Source of the DNA: Archangium gephyra
Lineage (GTDB): Bacteria; Myxococcota; Myxococcia; Myxococcales; Myxococcaceae
DNA length: 64,000 nt
Reading direction: 5' to 3'
Assembly (NCBI RefSeq): GCF_001027285.1
Contig: NZ_CP011509.1
Location: 3,046,501-3,110,500, forward strand
In this document: positions 1 through 9,196 of the stretch, piece by piece
Numbering within the stretch: position 1 is the first letter of the stretch
How the letters are laid out: each line of letters begins with the position of its first letter
Notes under the pieces: model-generated
What the model was told of the DNA's origin: nothing
Database searches by the model: none
The model's input: the letters and a program-made list of their open reading frames with translations, nothing else
Program-made: the position numbers and the translations under genes

Positions 1-2114
1 GCGGAGTACTCCGGCACCAGGTTGAAGGCCACGCCGCCGGCCACCACCACGTCGGCCTCGCGGTTGGCCAGCGCCATCATCGCGGCGTGCACCGCGACGA
101 GCGAGCTGGCACAGGCCGCGTCCACCATCAGCACGCCGCCGGTGAAGTCGTGGATGGCGGCCAGCCGCGCCGCCACGGGCAGGCTGGAGTAGTACTGGGA
201 CGTGTTCTCATCCAGCGGGGGCAGCTTGCCCACCACGCGCTGGCGGACCGCGTCGAGCAGCGGGGCCGACTGCTCGGCGGACATGCCCTGGGCCCGCAGG
301 GCCTCGGCCGCCATGGCCAGGTAGCGCTCCAGGACGAAGCGCAGCTCGGTCTCGAACTCCTTCGCGCGCACCGGCAGCTGGCCCACCACCACCTGCACAC
401 GCCGCCCGTTCCACATCCCGGGCTCATGGCCCGCCTGTCCGAGTGCCTCCTCCGCCGCCTTGACGAAGAGGGGCACGGCCGGATCCAGCGCCGCGGCCTG
501 GTTGGGCGGCAGCCGGAGCCAGCGCGCATCCGGCGAGGGCAGGTCCACCGTACCGGCCAGCCGGGGCACCATCTCCTTGGGCCCCATGAGCGCGCCCAGC
601 AGGTGCTGGGCATCGAAGCGCGAGGTGGGCAGATCTCCAATGGCATCCGCCTTGGAGACGATGTTGGTCCACAGGGCCTGCGAGTCCGGAGCGCCCGGGG
701 CGATGGCGCCCATGCCGACGATGGCGAACTTCTGGTTGGGCGGACGCACCGGGCGGATGTCCGCCCACGTCTCGTGGGACGGCGCGGGCCCGAGCAGCGC
801 GTGGTAGGCGATGTTGCTCCACCCCAGCGAGCTGACGCCCACGTAGCTGCGCGGCGTCAGCTTCATGGGGCGGGTGAGGCACTCCAGCGAGCCCTCGGTG
901 CCGTGACGCGGTGAGGTGAGGCCGGCCACGGGCGCGCGCACGCCTCCGTGCAGCGACAGCGCCGCGCGCATCACCGAGACGAGCCCGCTGGCCGCCTGCT
1001 GGAAGCCCACCTGCGGGGCCGCGGTGGAGAAGGTGAGGGGCTCGGTGCGCGTGGCGTTGAGCGCGGCCTTGAGGCCGATGAGCTCCTGGTCCTCCAGGCC
1101 CGGGACGCCGCACGCCTGCAGCTCCACGTGCCGCACCAGCTCCGCCTCGATGCCGGCCATGTCCAGACAGTTGCGCGCGGCCTTGTCCACCATGCGCGAC
1201 AGCCGGGAGAGGCCCTGCTTGAGGTTCACCTCGGCGCTGACGCCGTGCAGGACGGCGTAGATGCGCTGCTTGTCCGCCAGCGCGTCGTCCAGGCGGCACA
1301 GCACCAGGGCCACGGCGCCCTCGCCGGGCAGCGTGCCCGAGGCGCGTCCGTCCAGCGCGAGCAGCTCCTGCTCGGCCAGCCAGCCGCGCGCGGAGAGCAT
1401 CCCGAAGGAGGAGGGGCTGAGCAGCGGAGACACCGCGCCCACCACCGCCACGTCACAGTGGCCGAGCTGCAGCGAGAGCGAGGCGAACTTGAGCGCCGCC
1501 AGCGAGGAGGCCGTGCCCGCGTCCACCGCGAGGTGCCCGCCGCGCGTGTCCAGGAGGCCCGAGAGGCGGCCGGCCACGATGGTGGCCGTGGTGGGCACGG
1601 ACTCGGGGGTGATGGGCGGGGCATGCTGCGCGATGTAGCCATCCACCGCCTGCAGCAGACGGGCCTGGTCGCCGCGGCCCTGGAGGATGGCGGCCAGGTG
1701 CTCGCGGAACTCCGGAGCGCGCACGCGCACCGTCTGGTCCACCTTCACGTCCACGCCCAGGCCGGTGGCGCCCAGGTAGATGGCGCACCGGCCACCGGGG
1801 CTCTTGTCGGGGCCATAGCCCGCGTCCTGCGTCGCCTGCAGCAGCGTCAGGTGGAGCAGCCGCTCCATGCGGTGCATCTTCTCCACCTGGTTGGGCGGCA
1901 GGCGGAACTGCTTCCAGTCCTTGCCCTCCTCGGGGGCGAAGCCGCCCACCAGCGGATGGCTCAGGCCGAGCCCGGCGCCCCATTCCGCGGGAGCCCGTGT
2001 CAGGGCGCGCATCCCCTCCAGGGACTGGTTCATGAAGCGCGACGGGGAGTCGGCGCCGGGCAGGCGGCACCCGAGCCCGATGATGGCCAGAGGGATGTGC
2101 GTGGAGGAGGTCAT
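1..2114 (-). CDS. Pfa-like type I synthase subunit with tandem KS domains (3' end beyond window)
   Basis: Probably part of an iterative secondary-lipid or polyketide synthase. About 704 residues are visible and the frame stays open to the left edge. The N-terminus (IIGLGCRLPG) begins a first ketosynthase fold. Its active-site segment reads DAGTASSL near residue 200, with Thr where the catalytic Cys should be. The two His motifs are also gone (ELQACG for CHGTG; APQVGF for SNIGH), so it resembles a chain-length-factor-like KS. A second KS starts near residue 460 (FAIVGMGAIAPG) and keeps Cys in DAACASSL near residue 664, just before the edge. The ATG overlaps the stop of the preceding dehydratase-like gene as ATGA, indicating translational coupling. 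Start and KS family are clear. The product and remaining domains cannot be seen. Confidence 0.85.
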   Translation of the reverse strand, partial: MTSSTHIPLAIIGLGCRLPGADSPSRFMNQSLEGMRALTRAPAEWGAGLGLSHPLVGGFAPEEGKDWKQFRLPPNQVEKMHRMERLLHLTLLQATQDAGYGPDKSPGGRCAIYLGATGLGVDVKVDQTVRVRAPEFREHLAAILQGRGDQARLLQAVDGYIAQHAPPITPESVPTTATIVAGRLSGLLDTRGGHLAVDAGTASSLAALKFASLSLQLGHCDVAVVGAVSPLLSPSSFGMLSARGWLAEQELLALDGRASGTLPGEGAVALVLCRLDDALADKQRIYAVLHGVSAEVNLKQGLSRLSRMVDKAARNCLDMAGIEAELVRHVELQACGVPGLEDQELIGLKAALNATRTEPLTFSTAAPQVGFQQAASGLVSVMRAALSLHGGVRAPVAGLTSPRHGTEGSLECLTRPMKLTPRSYVGVSSLGWSNIAYHALLGPAPSHETWADIRPVRPPNQKFAIVGMGAIAPGAPDSQALWTNIVSKADAIGDLPTSRFDAQHLLGALMGPKEMVPRLAGTVDLPSPDARWLRLPPNQAAALDPAVPLFVKAAEEALGQAGHEPGMWNGRRVQVVVGQLPVRAKEFETELRFVLERYLAMAAEALRAQGMSAEQSAPLLDAVRQRVVGKLPPLDENTSQYYSSLPVAARLAAIHDFTGGVLMVDAACASSLVAVHAAMMALANREADVVVAGGVAFNLVPEYS

Positions 2115-3061
2115 CGCGGAGAGAGGCTCTTGACGAATGACTGCCAGGCGAGACGGGGAAGGGTGGGGGCGACGTCCTCGGTGGGCAGCGAGGCCATGCC
2201 GATGCCGCGCAGCTCGAGCACGGGGATGCCGTCCTGGCCCAGGAGGTGGGCGTCGAAGGAGGCCAGCCCGCTGCTGGCGCCGCACAGGCGGGCGTCACAC
2301 ATGAGGCGCTCGTCGCGCCGGGGCATTCGGAACCAGGTGGCCTCGGAGATGGCCATCTCGCGCGAGCCCTCGCCGGAGAAGGCGTACCAGAGCCACTTCA
2401 CCATGTGCAGCGCGCCCTCCATGGCGGCGGGCGCCACCTGGATGCGGCTGGCGGGCAGCACCTTGGACAGCACGCGCGGGTGGACGAGCCCCCCCTGGAT
2501 GCGGCCCAGCTCGCACAGCCGGGCCCAGGAGATGACCTGGAGCGACTCGGGCACGTCGCCCTGTCCGCCCGCCGAGGTGTAGAGCTGCCGGCCGTTCTGG
2601 AGATTCTCCGACTTGGGGGCCAGCATCTGCTGCTGCTGGGGCCAGGGCGCGGGCCCGTACGCATGGGCGAACTGAAGCACGGCGCGGCAGACGGGGATGG
2701 GCTCCTCGGAGGCCTCCTCGTGTCCCGCGCTGGCGCTGGCGCTCACCACCTCCATCGACAGGAAGACCGACACCTCACCGTCCCCCTCGCGGCGGGCACG
2801 CCCCACCAGCCGCGCGGCGGACGAGGGCTGAGAGGAGCGCAGGAACCAGCGCACGTCCCTCATCCCCACCAGCACGCGGTCCGGGTACACGAGCGCGCCC
2901 ACCTCGGCCAGGAACTCCAGCTCCATCGAGGCGGGCAACGGCCGCATCTCCTCGTCGAGCTCCCGCGGCAGGTGCACGTCGCGCTTGGCGACGGCGCTCT
3001 CGCCGCGGAAGACCTCGGAGACATCCTCCAGAAGCGGGTATTGGGAGGTATCGGGTTGCAC
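2111..3061 (-). CDS. dehydratase-like (PKS_DH, double hot-dog) protein of the synthase operon
   Basis: A 316-residue protein between the two KS proteins. The stretch LPASMELEFLAEVGALVYPD, followed by an arginine-rich strand region and a hydrophobic C-terminal half, resembles the N-terminal hot-dog of PKS dehydratases. I do not see a clean HxxxGxxxxP catalytic motif, so it may be a non-catalytic or divergent DH. The upstream megaenzyme ends 3 nt before it, and its own stop overlaps the next start by 4 nt (ATGA), so the three genes form one transcript. Its likely role is beta-hydroxyacyl dehydration on the ACP-bound chain, inferred mainly from context because neither megaenzyme shows a visible DH. 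Confidence 0.6.
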   Translation of the reverse strand: MQPDTSQYPLLEDVSEVFRGESAVAKRDVHLPRELDEEMRPLPASMELEFLAEVGALVYPDRVLVGMRDVRWFLRSSQPSSAARLVGRARREGDGEVSVFLSMEVVSASASAGHEEASEEPIPVCRAVLQFAHAYGPAPWPQQQQMLAPKSENLQNGRQLYTSAGGQGDVPESLQVISWARLCELGRIQGGLVHPRVLSKVLPASRIQVAPAAMEGALHMVKWLWYAFSGEGSREMAISEATWFRMPRRDERLMCDARLCGASSGLASFDAHLLGQDGIPVLELRGIGMASLPTEDVAPTLPRLAWQSFVKSLSPR

Positions 3062-3064
3062 GGT

Positions 3065-6000
3065 CTAGTGACCCTTCACGATCTGCTGGGCGAGCTCGCT
3101 CAGCGAGCGGATCGACTCCGTCTCCGGCGCGGCGACACCCAGTCGCGAGGACATCGCCTCGGCCAGCTTGCGCACCTCCCCGTCCTTCACCCCCGCCTGG
3201 CGGAGATCCATGGCGAGGAGCGCGTCGCGGACGGAGCGCGGACCGCCATTGCCGGAGCGCTTCGCGGGCGGCTCGGCGGTGACGGCGGGAGCGGCGGCCC
3301 GGGCGGGAGCCGGGGCGGCGGACGCGGTGCCCACGCCCAGCTGCTGCGCGCGCTCGACGATGTGCTCGATGACCTTGCGCAGGGTGTTGAAGTCCCGCAG
3401 GGCGCGGCTGGGGTCGCGCGTGACGCCGAAGGCCTCGCGGGTGCGCGCGAAGATGTCCACCTGCTTGACGGTGTCGATGCCGAGGTCCGCCTCGAGGTCG
3501 AGGTCGAGCTCCAGCATGTCCTCGGGATAGCCCGTCTTCTCCACCACGTTGCGCAGCAGCACCTCGCGCACCTGCTCGAAGAGATCCAACGAGGCGGCGA
3601 TGGTGGAGGTGGGCATCACCGGGGCGGCGGGAGCGGGAGCCGGAGCGGCGGGGGCCGGAGCCGCCGGAGCGGGCCGGGCCGCCACGGGGGCCGGAGCCGG
3701 AGCCGGAGCGGGCGCGGTGGCCGCGGTGGAGACGGCACCCGTGGCGATGATGCGCTCGACGATGTGCTCGACGACCTTCTGCAGGGTGTTGAAGTCCCGC
3801 AGGGCGCGGCTGGGGTCGCGCGTGACGCCGAAGGCCTCGCGGGTGCGCGCGAAGATGTCCACCTGCTTGACGGTGTCGATGCCGAGATCCGCCTCGAGAT
3901 CGAGGTTCATCTCCAGCATGTCCTCCGGGTAGCCCGTCTTGGCCACCACGGTGTCCAGCAGCACGCGGCGGACCTCCTCCTCCAGTGCGATGGACTTCTG
4001 CACCGTGGTCACCTGATGGGCGGCCGGAGCGGGCTCGGCCACGGGTGCCTTCGTGGGGGCGGGGGCGCTGCCCACCGCGGCCTGGCCCGTGCGCAGCTGC
4101 TCCACGAGCGCGACGATGGCATCGAACGTCCGCAGGTTCTCCGGCTGGGCCACGGAGGCATCCACGCCGAACTCGCGGCCCAGGGCGATGGCCACCTTCA
4201 AGGCGGTGGCGGGCTCGAGTACTCCCTCGAGCGGCAGCTGCAGCAGCGCCTGCTCCACCTCGGCCACAGCGCCCGCGGCATCCTCCGAGAGCTGGCCGAC
4301 GCCATTCACGAATGAATATCCCACCACGCGCTTGAACTGTTCCATGTCACCTACCTTGGGATGAATCGATGCGATGGCGCCATGCTGCTGTCCCTTGAGG
4401 ATCTCCCGGGTGAACTGGGTGAGAGACCACTTGGGCCCGGCCTCGATGAAGATGCGGGCGCCCTGGTTGTGGGCCTCGCCGAGGGCCTGGCGCAGGCGCA
4501 CGGGCTCGACGAACTGGCTGGTCAGGAACGCCGGGTACTCACGCAGCGGCCGGTCGCCGTAATCCGCCGCGTCGATGGTGGAGATGAGGCGCACCGCGGG
4601 GGCGCGGAAGGCCAGCCCCTGCAGTACCTTCTGATAGGCCGGGCGCGCCGCGCCGATGAGCTCCGAGTGGTAGCCGTGCGAGACGGCCAGCACCGTGCAT
4701 TCGATGCCCTGGGCGGTGCAGCGTTCCACCAGGCCGGGCAGGGCGTTGCGGTCCGCGGACACGATGCAGGCGCGCGGTCCGTTGTCGGCCGCCAGGGTGG
4801 CGTAGCCGGGCAGGCCCTCGATGAGGGAGGGCACCTGCTCGGAGGGGCACGCGAGCGCGGCCATCTGCCCGGGATCCTCGGTGGGCATCTCCAGCACGGC
4901 CATGGTGCGCGAGTGGATGGCGCGCAGGCCCTCCTCGAGGGTGAGGCTGCCCGCGGCCACCAGCGCCGCCAGCTCGCCCGCGCTCTGGCCGATGACCATG
5001 TCCGCGTGGATGCCGTGGGCCACCAGCAGCCGGTAGAGGGCCACGTTGACCAGGAAGACGGCCGCGTGGATGTCCTCGTCGTTCTGCCGGTAGTTCTTCG
5101 CGTCCTCCGTGTAGAAGCTGCTCGTCAGCGTGCGTCCGGTGAGGCGCAGGTAGACGCGGTCCGCCTCCTCCAGCGTCCGGGCCACCACGGGGTAGGCACG
5201 GGCGAGCGGGCGCAGCATGTTGGCGTACTGGCCGCCCTGGCCGGGGAAGGTGATGGCCACCTTGGCGCCGCGCAGGGGCGCGTCCGGGCCCGCCGCGAAG
5301 ATGCCGGACTGGCCCAGGGGCTCCGTGTCTCCGCCGGCCTCCAGCGTCTTGCGCAGGAAGTCGCGCTTCTTGCGCAGCTCCTCGCGGGTGCGCGCGGTGA
5401 TGGCCACGCGCCAGGGGCCCTCGGGCGTGTGGCGCGTGTCCTCCAGCGGGCCCTGCTGCTCGCACAGGGCGTTGAGCTGCTCCAGGCACGCGCGCGCGTC
5501 CGCGCCCGCCACGGCGACGAGCTTCGGGTCTCCCTCCGCCGGCTCGCCCTCCTTCTTGTTCGGAGGCGAGGGCGGCCCCTTGTACTCCTCGAGGATGGCG
5601 TGGAAGTTGGAGCCGCCGACGCCGAAGGAGCTGACACCGGCGCGGCGCGGCGCCCCACCCGCGGGCGCGGGCCACTCGCGGTTGTCCGTCACCACCTCGA
5701 CGCCCTGGGGAATCTTCGGGTTGCGCGGCTCGCTCTTGAGGGAGCGCGGGAGGATACGCGCCTGCATGGCGCGGGTGACCTTGATCATCCCGGCCGCGCC
5801 GGCCGCGGCGTTGAGGTGGCCGATGTTGGACTTCACCGAGCCGATGAGGATGGGGCGGGTGCGGCCCTCGCTGTAGGCGTTGTGGGTGGACTTCGTCTCC
5901 ACCACGTCACCCAGCGCGGTGCCGGTGCCATGGCACTCCACGTAGTCCACGCTCGCGGGGGGCACGTTGGCGGCGGCCAGGGCGCGGCGCATGGCGAGCG

Positions 6001-8362
6001 TCTCACCCATCTCGCTGGGAGGCAGCACGGAGCGGCCCTTGCCATCGCTGGAGCCGGCGATGGAGCGGATGACGGCGTGGATGCGGTCCTTGTCGCGCTC
6101 GGCGTCCGACAGCCGCTTGACCACGAGGATGCCAGCACCCTCGCCGGGGACGAAGCCGTCGGCCTGGGCGTTGAAGGGCTGGCTGCCCTTGGCGGACAGG
6201 GCGTTGAAGCGGCAGCCGGCGATGTAGAACTCGGGCGACATGTCGGCCCACACACCGCCGGTGAGTACCACGTCCGCCTCGCGGTGCTGCAGCAACTTCC
6301 AGGCGCCGTGGAGCGCGGCCAGCGAGCTGGCACAGGCCGAGTCCATCACCATGTGCGGCCCGTGGAAGTCATAGAGCGCGGAGATGCGGCCGGCGTTGAG
6401 GCTGCCCAGGTAGCCGGTGAGGCTGTCCTCGCTGATGGGCGGCAGGCCCGCCTTGTAGCGCTCCTCGGCGTTGCGCAGGATGAGGCCGCGCAGCTCCTCG
6501 GGCAGGCCGGACTTCTCCATCGTCTCGCGCAGCTCCCGGGCGAACTCGGCCCAGCGCACGCGCGTGTCGGCGAGGAACTTGATGCCCTGGTACGGCAGGA
6601 AGCCCAGCGCCAGCGCCACCCGGTCCCGGTCCCACTTGTCCGGCGAGTACCCCGCGTCCTTGAGGGCCTGCTCGGCGCTCAGCAGCGTCACCACGTGCGA
6701 GGGGTCCAACGAGGCCCAGGCCGCGGGAGGAATCCGCATCTCCATGGTCGGCGTGGGCATCTCCTCCAGCCAGCAGCCGAGCTTCGTGTACGTGCGGTCC
6801 TTGCGATCCGGGTGGTGGTAGCGCTCCACCTTCCAGCGATCCTTGGGCACCTCGCGCGTGGCGTCGTGGCCCTCGAGCAGCCGCTTCCAGAGCGACTCGA
6901 TGTTGGGGGCGCCGGGGAACATGCCGCCCATGCCGACGATGGCCAGCGGCTCGGCCTGGCGGCGGCGGGGGGCGGCCTTGCGCTCGGTGCCGGGCTGCCA
7001 GGCCTCCAGCACCGCGTGGAAGTTGTTGCCGCCGAAGCTGAAGGAGCTGACGGCCGCGCGCGGCAGGGTGCCGGCGCGGAACGGCTGCGCCTTGCGGGGG
7101 ATGAAGAAGGGCGTGCGCTCCAGCTCCAGCTTCGGGTTGATGCGCTCCACGCCCGGCTGGGGCGGAATCTGCCCGTGGTGCAGCGAGAGCACGGCCTTGA
7201 GCAGCCCGGCGCCACCCGCGCCCGCGCGCAGGTGGCCGATGTTGGCCTTCACCGAGCCGAGCGCGATGGAGCCCGGCCCGCCCGCGTACACGCTCGCCAG
7301 CGCCTGCACCTCGCTGACGTCGCCCACCGGCGTGCCCGTGGCATGGCACTCCACGTATTGGATGGAGTCCGCCGCCACGCCCGAGTCCTCGAGCGCGCGG
7401 CGCATGGCCAGCGCCTGGCCCTCGCGCCGGGGCGCCACCAGCGACTTGCCCCGTCCGTCCGACGAGCCACCCACGCCGCGCAGCACCGCGTAGATGGTCT
7501 CTCCATCCCGCTCCGCGTCCTCCAGCCGCTTGAGGGCGAACAGCGTCACGCCCTCGCCCAGCAGCGTGCCGTCACACTCGTCCGAGAAGGGCTTCACGTG
7601 GCCCTTGTGGGACAGCCCGCCCAGCTTGGAGAAGGCGATGAACTCCAGCGGCGTCAGCATCTCGCTCACGCCACCGGCCACCGCCAGGTCGAACTCGCCG
7701 TCCCGCAGCCCGCGCACCGCCAGATCCAACGCCGCCAGCGAGGACGAGTACCCCGCGTCCACCGAGTAGTGCAGCCCCTTGAGATCGAACTGCATGTTGA
7801 TGCGGCCCACGGCCACGCTGGCCGAGGAGCCCACCACGTTGTCGTCGCTGCACTCCTTGAGGCGCGAGCGCAGCCGTTGGGCGGTGACCTCGAGCACCTC
7901 CTGCTGCCGGCTGGTGGGCAGCGCGTTGAACTCCTCCGTGGCGCGCACCGCGTCCAGCATGTCCTCCAGGCGGATGTGCATGCCGCTGTCGCGCTGCCAG
8001 CCGAGGCTGGTGGCGCCGAGGATGATGCCGGTGGTGTCCCGGGGCAGCACACGCACCTCGGAGAGCGCCTGGGTGCCCGCCTCCAGGACCATCCACTGGA
8101 AGGGGTTGACCTGTTGGGCGTCCGCCGGGGTGACCTTGTACTTGCGCCAGTCGAAGACGAAGTCGTGGATGAAGCCGCCCAGCTCCGCGTGGGCCCGGTC
8201 CGGCATGGTGCGGTCCGGGTGGAAGTAGAGCGAATGGTCCCAGGCGCGCGAGGGCACCTTCGAGAGTGACACCCTGCCCGTGGAAACGCTGGCCCAGAAG
8301 TCGGAAACGCGGAGGGCGTTCGGCAGGACGCAGCCCAATCCTACCACGGCGATGGCATCCAT
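3065..8362 (-). CDS. Pfa-like megasynthase KS(inactive)-KS-AT-ACP-ACP
   Basis: 1765 residues. The start at 8362 (MDAIAVVGLGCVLP) follows a GAGAGAA stretch. A longer open frame upstream adds non-homologous residues and was not used. KS1 (about 1-430) reads VDAGYSSSL near residue 202, with Tyr replacing the catalytic Cys, although CHATGT and KANIGH remain. KS2 (about 470-900) is intact: DSACASSL near 674, CHGTGT near 809, KSNIGH near 844. An acyltransferase follows (FPGQGGQY near 1036; GQSAGE, Ser nucleophile, near 1122). Two nearly identical ACPs lie near 1462-1540 and 1597-1672, separated by an Ala/Pro linker. Both carry LGIDTVKQ, with Thr where the phosphopantetheine Ser is expected. No KR or ER is visible. 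The arrangement resembles PUFA-type secondary lipid synthases; the product is unknown. Confidence 0.88.
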   Translation of the reverse strand: MDAIAVVGLGCVLPNALRVSDFWASVSTGRVSLSKVPSRAWDHSLYFHPDRTMPDRAHAELGGFIHDFVFDWRKYKVTPADAQQVNPFQWMVLEAGTQALSEVRVLPRDTTGIILGATSLGWQRDSGMHIRLEDMLDAVRATEEFNALPTSRQQEVLEVTAQRLRSRLKECSDDNVVGSSASVAVGRINMQFDLKGLHYSVDAGYSSSLAALDLAVRGLRDGEFDLAVAGGVSEMLTPLEFIAFSKLGGLSHKGHVKPFSDECDGTLLGEGVTLFALKRLEDAERDGETIYAVLRGVGGSSDGRGKSLVAPRREGQALAMRRALEDSGVAADSIQYVECHATGTPVGDVSEVQALASVYAGGPGSIALGSVKANIGHLRAGAGGAGLLKAVLSLHHGQIPPQPGVERINPKLELERTPFFIPRKAQPFRAGTLPRAAVSSFSFGGNNFHAVLEAWQPGTERKAAPRRRQAEPLAIVGMGGMFPGAPNIESLWKRLLEGHDATREVPKDRWKVERYHHPDRKDRTYTKLGCWLEEMPTPTMEMRIPPAAWASLDPSHVVTLLSAEQALKDAGYSPDKWDRDRVALALGFLPYQGIKFLADTRVRWAEFARELRETMEKSGLPEELRGLILRNAEERYKAGLPPISEDSLTGYLGSLNAGRISALYDFHGPHMVMDSACASSLAALHGAWKLLQHREADVVLTGGVWADMSPEFYIAGCRFNALSAKGSQPFNAQADGFVPGEGAGILVVKRLSDAERDKDRIHAVIRSIAGSSDGKGRSVLPPSEMGETLAMRRALAAANVPPASVDYVECHGTGTALGDVVETKSTHNAYSEGRTRPILIGSVKSNIGHLNAAAGAAGMIKVTRAMQARILPRSLKSEPRNPKIPQGVEVVTDNREWPAPAGGAPRRAGVSSFGVGGSNFHAILEEYKGPPSPPNKKEGEPAEGDPKLVAVAGADARACLEQLNALCEQQGPLEDTRHTPEGPWRVAITARTREELRKKRDFLRKTLEAGGDTEPLGQSGIFAAGPDAPLRGAKVAITFPGQGGQYANMLRPLARAYPVVARTLEEADRVYLRLTGRTLTSSFYTEDAKNYRQNDEDIHAAVFLVNVALYRLLVAHGIHADMVIGQSAGELAALVAAGSLTLEEGLRAIHSRTMAVLEMPTEDPGQMAALACPSEQVPSLIEGLPGYATLAADNGPRACIVSADRNALPGLVERCTAQGIECTVLAVSHGYHSELIGAARPAYQKVLQGLAFRAPAVRLISTIDAADYGDRPLREYPAFLTSQFVEPVRLRQALGEAHNQGARIFIEAGPKWSLTQFTREILKGQQHGAIASIHPKVGDMEQFKRVVGYSFVNGVGQLSEDAAGAVAEVEQALLQLPLEGVLEPATALKVAIALGREFGVDASVAQPENLRTFDAIVALVEQLRTGQAAVGSAPAPTKAPVAEPAPAAHQVTTVQKSIALEEEVRRVLLDTVVAKTGYPEDMLEMNLDLEADLGIDTVKQVDIFARTREAFGVTRDPSRALRDFNTLQKVVEHIVERIIATGAVSTAATAPAPAPAPAPVAARPAPAAPAPAAPAPAPAAPVMPTSTIAASLDLFEQVREVLLRNVVEKTGYPEDMLELDLDLEADLGIDTVKQVDIFARTREAFGVTRDPSRALRDFNTLRKVIEHIVERAQQLGVGTASAAPAPARAAAPAVTAEPPAKRSGNGGPRSVRDALLAMDLRQAGVKDGEVRKLAEAMSSRLGVAAPETESIRSLSELAQQIVKGH
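3379..3886. repeat. identical 106-nt duplication inside the two ACP domains
   Basis: Positions 3379-3484 and 3781-3886 are identical base for base, 402 nt apart, and cover the centre of each ACP including the LGIDTVKQ segment. The flanking ACP sequence and the Ala/Pro linker differ. This indicates a recent tandem duplication or ongoing gene conversion of the carrier domains. It is also a likely assembly trouble spot. Confidence 0.9.
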
Positions 8363-8764: not shown

Positions 8765-9196
8765 ATGAGCCTGAAGAAGACGCGCAGCACGCAGCGCCGC
8801 CGCCCGCGCGGCATGACCCTCATCGAGATCATGGTGGTGATCACCATCCTCGGTCTCATCATGGCCGCGGTGGGCGTGGCCGTCATTCCGCAGCTCGACG
8901 AGGCCAGGCGGGACACCGCGCGCCTGGACATCGCCAACCTCCACAACGCGTTGAAGCTCTACTACGCGAAGAAGGGCAAGTTCCCCGACACGAGCACCGG
9001 CCTGCGCGCGCTGGTGGAGACGCAGACGCTGGAGCAGATGCCCAGGGATCCCTGGGGCAACGAGTACGTGTACCTCAGCGAGGGCGGCAAGCCCGTCATC
9101 ACCTCGTATGGCGCGGACAGCTCACCGGGTGGAGAGGGCGCGGACGCGGACGTGTCCTCGCGCGACCTGCAGAAGGACGCCGTGGCGCACAGGTAG
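8765..9196 (+). CDS. gspG: type II secretion major pseudopilin GspG
   Basis: 143 residues. It begins with a basic leader ending in Gly and the prepilin methylation motif G|MTLIEIMVVITILGLI (cut before Met17, Glu at position +5 of the mature protein), then the long hydrophobic helix. The C-terminal half has the GspG signature: FPDTSTGLRALV, PRDPWGNEYVYL, TSYGADSSPGGEG. In that family this end forms the calcium-binding loop of the periplasmic pseudopilus. GAGGAGAACGAC precedes the ATG. No other gsp genes are nearby, so this is an orphan copy outside a secretion operon. It could serve a separate pseudopilus or supplement a distant system. Confidence 0.92.
   Translation: MSLKKTRSTQRRRPRGMTLIEIMVVITILGLIMAAVGVAVIPQLDEARRDTARLDIANLHNALKLYYAKKGKFPDTSTGLRALVETQTLEQMPRDPWGNEYVYLSEGGKPVITSYGADSSPGGEGADADVSSRDLQKDAVAHR

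Follow-up and report, generated by a model that had tools for sequence, protein, structure and literature searches.

A compact operon of Archangium gephyra with a defective ketosynthase in front of an intact one in two synthases, and with carrier proteins carrying threonine at the phosphopantetheine position

Why should a megasynthase carry a ketosynthase (KS) without its nucleophile directly in front of an intact one, and why twice in the same operon? This question is raised by a locus in the single-contig genome of Archangium gephyra (12.49 Mb), of which a stretch of 64,000 nucleotides (positions 3,046,501-3,110,500, in the following the window) was analysed. The operon lies on the minus strand and consists of the genes A, B and C and a PPTase gene; it was completed with sequence from left of the window. 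Gene A (3065-8362, 1765 aa) was read from the ATG at 8362, the open frame reaching to 8584, and shows the Pfam domains KS1-KS2-AT-ACP-ACP. Gene B (2111-3061, 316 aa) encodes a homologue of double-hotdog dehydratases (DH). The N-terminal part of gene C occupies positions 1-2114; the gene extends 3.3 kb beyond the window edge, ends at genome position 3043233 (window -3267) and reads KS1-KS2-KR-DH by Pfam. The initial annotation had seen no KR in 8 kb and looked for the reduction in the unseen part or elsewhere. The absence turned out to be an effect of the window edge and the unseen part to be the source, since both KR and DH lie to the left in C. The motifs of the KR are retained, as judged by eye, as are the His and Asp motifs of the DH. 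C is followed by the PPTase gene with 4PPT_N and ACPS domains. Three bases separate the stop of A from the start of B, and B and C overlap by stop and start codon (ATGA); thus the genes look translationally coupled. No thioesterase was detected in A, B or C by Pfam. The acyltransferase (AT) domain of A (4301-5248) contains the motifs GQSAG and HGYHS, GQSAG replacing the usual GHSxG in all six A proteins inspected. A divergent pseudopilin-like gene (8765-9196, GspG-type by eye) adjoins the operon.

The catalytic residues of the KS domains were read from an alignment to FabF and FabB of E. coli, for 43 loci, with identical sequences counted once and matches of fewer than 250 model positions excluded. 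A-KS1 (6995-8362) has Tyr at the nucleophile position and retains the other three residues (Tyr-His-Lys-His), and A-KS2 (5576-6952) is complete (Cys-His-Lys-His). C-KS1 (774-2096) reads Thr-Gln-Ala-Phe, and C-KS2, with its first part at 1-737 and the remainder left of the window, is again Cys-His-Lys-His. Hence, the defective KS precedes the intact one in both proteins, but the two dead domains differ: A-KS1 lacks only the Cys, C-KS1 all four residues. The replacements of Cys by Tyr and Thr, the loss of both His in C-KS1 and the Cys of both second KSs had been named in the initial annotation and were confirmed by the alignment, which adds the loss of the Lys in C-KS1. The pairing in cis with the defective copy first, described there as occurring twice, is conserved in 10 orthologs of A and 11 of C. 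At the nucleophile position of A-KS1 Tyr was found in eight of ten orthologs and Phe in two (G002 and G005), with His-Lys-His in all ten. C-KS1 showed Thr-Gln-(Ala in ten, Thr in one)-Phe in 11/11 orthologs, and KS2 was complete in every ortholog of A (10/10) and C (11/11). If a chain-length factor (CLF) or KS-beta is taken as a KS-like domain that stands beside a live KS and has lost the catalytic residues, this description applies to C-KS1 fully and to A-KS1 only for the Cys. AlphaFold models of KS1-KS2, calculated with only six alignment rows each, reached a pLDDT of 36.7 for A and of 35.3 for C of Archangium violaceum (L013), too low for the models to be used. In genome G076 an open frame of 2757 aa (L060, 7519-15789) contains two adjacent KS domains, both with Cys-His-Lys-His.

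Orthologs of C-KS1 with at least 77% identity were found in 11 of 195 Myxococcota genomes, A. gephyra included. The next matches (36-42%) were in G044, G084, G087 and G076, and larger KS-KS clusters from other genera within the family gave best matches of 31-36%. All three named records in which gene C was found, those of the own genome possibly excluded from the search, belong to Archangium. The order A-B-C-PPTase was observed in all ten Archangium-type regions; of the eleventh C-bearing genome (G008) C alone was found, on a contig of 5.7 kb. A chemotaxis-receptor-like MCP gene (L001, 13989-16031, to the left of the window in A. gephyra) runs convergent to the operon in ten of ten Archangium-type regions, that of L016 aligning in two pieces. 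The MCP gene beside the G044 locus was rejected as a shared trait and is taken as coincidence, because the two genes align at only 26% over the signalling part.

The plan of two genes A and C recurs in two other Myxococcota families, recognized in G044 and G071 from a full Pfam domain reading and in G084 from its KS and ACP motifs. As in Archangium, A is KS1-KS2-AT-ACP-ACP and C is KS1-KS2-KR-DH in these compact loci. KS1 of A reads Phe-His-Lys-His in all three; KS1 of C reads Ser-Arg-Val-Phe in G044 and G084 and Ala-Arg-Ala-His in G071. Unlike the Archangium-type regions, those of G044, G084 and G071 showed no match to gene B. Plasmid records matched the KS didomain of A in 1292 cases and C-KS1 in 438, all below 60% identity. 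Two adjacent full KS domains of the A/C kind were found in none of the six plasmid records examined; a Persicobacter record, in which a weaker KS-like domain comes after a KS, was taken as PfaC-type with the live KS first.

A further degenerate part is found between A and C. Gene B had no Pfam or NCBIfam match at 0.01 and no plasmid match. It aligns with the DHs of C, but the His segment is gone and Glu stands for Asp in 8/8 rows. A weak match (26% identity, E 1.9e-4) was found to the DH portion of a protein with KS-KS-DH layout in G033. Judged from this alignment, B is a third, putatively inactive paralogue beside A-KS1 and C-KS1. Orthologs with at least 77% identity occur in 8 of the 59 genomes searched, A. 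gephyra included, and in all six of the genus.

The carrier proteins of A also deviate from the expected type. ACP1 (3740-3982, ends approximate) and ACP2 (3359-3562) both read LGIDTVKQ, with Thr (codons 3872-3874 and 3470-3472) where the phosphopantetheine Ser is expected, i.e. GIDT and not GIDS. The motif [DE]LG[IV]DTVKQ occurs at exactly two sites in the 12.49-Mb genome, both within A; among 189 Myxococcota genomes 49 contain it, and the reversed control pattern did not appear among the matches listed. With a motif scan permitting Ser or Thr, the ACPs found in the ten A orthologs were all Thr-type (two each, one in G124), as were those found in G044, G084 and G071. In the Stigmatella-type cluster of G126 all five ACPs are Thr-type, two of them with different residues after the Thr. 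Thr-type ACPs also occur in three long proteins with a single KS (Nonomuraea L092, G191 and G192), which lie outside the KS-KS clades. Ser was found in the ACPs of seven PfaA-like proteins, five above the cut-off of TIGR02813, that of G039 below it, plus that of Persicobacter. It was also found in two type P proteins, from Beijerinckia, listed as type P (PMC3098273), and from Methylosinus, which adjoins Beijerinckia in the tree. In the available part of one publication Ser is treated as required for ACPs (PMC13291983), and a literature search short of most subscription journals gave, among the papers listed, no report of ACPs with Thr for Ser. As LGIDTVKQ contains no Ser, a functional ACP of this kind would have to carry its arm on Thr. 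Common to a large family, the Thr-type ACPs challenge the rule that phosphopantetheine is carried on serine.

The origin of the KS pairs was investigated with a maximum-likelihood tree of 70 rows. Nine of the original 79 rows were removed, namely five CLFs and two KSs of G076 for their long branches and two Calothrix KSs, which fell among modular KSs; six rows of the tree were flagged for odd composition, including Anaero_A1, A2, C1 and C2. The 21 first-position KSs formed one clade (bootstrap 100/SH-aLRT 99); a second clade (97/97) held the 21 second-position KSs. Both clades include the multi-KS-KS clusters of other myxobacteria and are set apart from the KSs of PfaA-like, PfaC, type P, modular and FabF/B type. 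A1, A2, C1 and C2 were each monophyletic across the Archangium-type loci, G044 and G071. Duplication of a KS in place was rejected by the AU test within A (A1+A2, p-AU 0.0001) as well as within C (C1+C2, p-AU 0.004). Thus, KS1 and KS2 have long been joined, and duplication copied the two together. A joint clade of KS1 and KS2 was absent from the best tree but was not rejected by the AU test (p-AU 0.385). In a quick tree of all 79 rows, for which the boundaries of the PfaC CLF domains had largely been placed by eye, these CLFs nested with the first-position KSs (SH-aLRT 99); grouping them with the PfaC KSs was not rejected (p-AU 0.21), and long branches may attract dead domains.

Decarboxylation of the KSQ type needs both His and the Lys. 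These residues are kept in A-KS1 of all ten orthologs and of G044, G084, G087 and G071, and the same set is found in the first KS of D1-type proteins from larger clusters. A-KS1 might act as a KSQ-like decarboxylase, converting malonyl-ACP to acetyl-ACP for priming, so that C-KS1 alone would serve as scaffold or length factor. We consider this unlikely, though worth keeping in mind: the nucleophile is replaced by the bulky Tyr or Phe and not by Gln, and A-KS1 clusters with the other first-position KSs, the fully degenerate ones included.

Furthermore, the relation to PUFA synthases was examined. The initial annotation had read the locus through their KS plus CLF. In favour of this reading, TIGR02813 (PfaA) is the best NCBIfam match of both A (876.3 bits) and C (443 bits), and the KS1 lineage agrees with it. 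A PUFA synthase likewise has a KS in cis with a KS-like domain without active residues, combines KS, AT and tandem ACPs on a single polypeptide, in PfaA with the AT and the ACPs after the KS as in A, and works iteratively. The KS-CLF didomain '6riw ORF10' is presumably PfaC of Moritella. The structure of the KS-CLF of M. marina is known; CLF domains in general are described as devoid of active residues, and the PfaA KS accepts other chain lengths than the PfaC KS-CLF (PMC9702510). Shulse and Allen sorted Pfa-like clusters into 20 types; the tables in the available part of that paper (PMC3098273) list Plesiocystis and Sorangium as type L but have no entry for Archangium, Stigmatella, Myxococcus or Anaeromyxobacter. 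Other parts of the reading did not hold. Both scores stay below the cut-off of 1010.1 bits, and a search of the A. gephyra genome for an enoyl reductase of the PfaD type gave no TIGR02814 match. In PfaC the live KS comes first and the CLF second, in A and C the dead one comes first, twice. The ACPs of PUFA synthases carry Ser, those of A carry Thr. In addition, the KS2s lie outside the PfaA and PfaC KS clades, and none of A, B and C has a FabA-type DH by Pfam. It is thus very improbable that the locus encodes a true PUFA synthase whose domains have been rearranged.

Two KSs in one protein are also found in PigJ, which takes part in MBC synthesis for prodigiosin. The PigJ model NF053555 matches A with 338.3 and C with 193.1 bits, far from its cut-off of 900, and to our knowledge PigJ differs by having no AT, ACP or KR.

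Purifying selection acts on the dead domains as it does on the live ones. In six genome pairs dN/dS was 0.10-0.34 for A1 and 0.14-0.41 for C1, compared with 0.18-0.60 for A2 and 0.03-0.40 for C2. Together with the replacement residues kept in orthologs and the layout kept across families, these values make it hardly credible that the first KSs are merely decaying and serve no function, as the loss of all four residues in C-KS1 might suggest.

Probably, the dead KS in front of each live KS is its length-setting partner. We think it rather probable that A, B and C form an iterative synthase of polyene type, related to PUFA synthases and the dawenol system, with CLF-KS pairs in the reverse of the PfaC order. 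KS1 would be the CLF-type partner of KS2, giving each polypeptide its own KS-beta/KS-alpha pair, provided that the two domains are also paired in space. The AT would load malonyl units onto the tandem ACPs of A. By analogy to the PfaA KS and the PfaC KS-CLF, the two pairs may share the condensations by chain length, and KR and DH of C would process each round. Since no enoyl reductase is seen in the operon, the chain would stay unsaturated, and we expect a polyene or a polyenoyl lipid to be made. Several observations speak against this polyene synthase with CLF-type partners: one first-position KS keeps its Cys in several genomes with related clusters, the His-Lys-His of A-KS1, unlike C-KS1, fits a decarboxylase too, the placement of the PfaC CLFs with KS1 is not decisive, and a thioesterase for the release of the chain is not among the Pfam domains of A, B and C. 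It is possible, and for us nearly an even matter, that the locus stands for a distinct class of iterative synthases. In such a class phosphopantetheine would be borne on Thr and attached by a cognate PPTase, and each live domain type (the two KSs and the DH) would have a dead paralogue (A-KS1, C-KS1 and B) setting chain length and geometry. Both paralogous proteins have the presumed length factor fused ahead of the live KS, whereas PUFA synthases have the opposite order. As a single operon of 12 kb, the locus suits the question by what means chain length is set by a KS-beta partner in enzymes of type I.

The dawenol polyketide synthase of Stigmatella aurantiaca DW4/3-1 was reportedly described by Osswald et al. 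in 2014. The KS-KS clusters of other myxobacteria were compared with the occurrence of its gene cluster, BGC0000044 (PMC12211065), whose product has been termed a 'PUFA-like PK' (PMC8767328). In the available part of a study on Corallococcus, similarity to the dawenol cluster is given as 88% for C. soli, 88% for C. terminator and 22% for C. sicarius, and none is given for nine other type strains (PMC9323933). In the genomes tentatively assigned to the positive strains (G034, G122 and G116) C-KS1 matched strongly (E 8.7e-41 to 5.5e-42), and the Thr-ACP motif was present in 3, 3 and 2 places, respectively. Six negatives (G109-G113 and G115; G112 matched only roughly) gave only weak matches to C-KS1 (E 1.6e-28 to 5.5e-21) and no Thr-ACP motif. 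KS-KS clusters thus followed dawenol occurrence in 3/3 positives and 6/6 negatives, with the matching of strains to genomes tentative and 3 of 12 unmatched. By this occurrence, and not by comparison with the deposited record, the KS-KS clusters of Stigmatella, Corallococcus and Myxococcus appear to be dawenol-type. In the dawenol-like loci L086 (14710-18663) and L066 (10596-14453) one first-position KS keeps the Cys and has Tyr for the last His, with Ser and Glu occurring at this place in G019, G034 and G116; these domains are thus defective in another manner.

As far as sequence comparison allows, the A/B/C locus is a compact variant of this dawenol-like KS-KS kind and, by the tests made, not a PUFA synthase. 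Of the refuting case named in the initial annotation, a well-described family with known product and the same architecture, the tree bears out one half: the KSs stand with clusters that match the occurrence of dawenol, a known product, but the gene architecture differs. With the dawenol-type assigned by occurrence, both have KS tandems whose first member is defective and whose domains fall in the same two clades, Thr-type ACPs, and KR, DH and PPTase in the cluster. Dawenol-type clusters contain three (G126) or four (G137) KS-KS proteins over about 19 kb. That of G126 comprises a separate AT, KS-KS-AT, five ACPs with KR, an AAT-DH protein, KS-KS, KS-KS-DH and a PPTase. Archangium has two KS-KS proteins and a pseudo-DH in about 12 kb instead, the most compact type of KS-KS synthase among the clusters compared.
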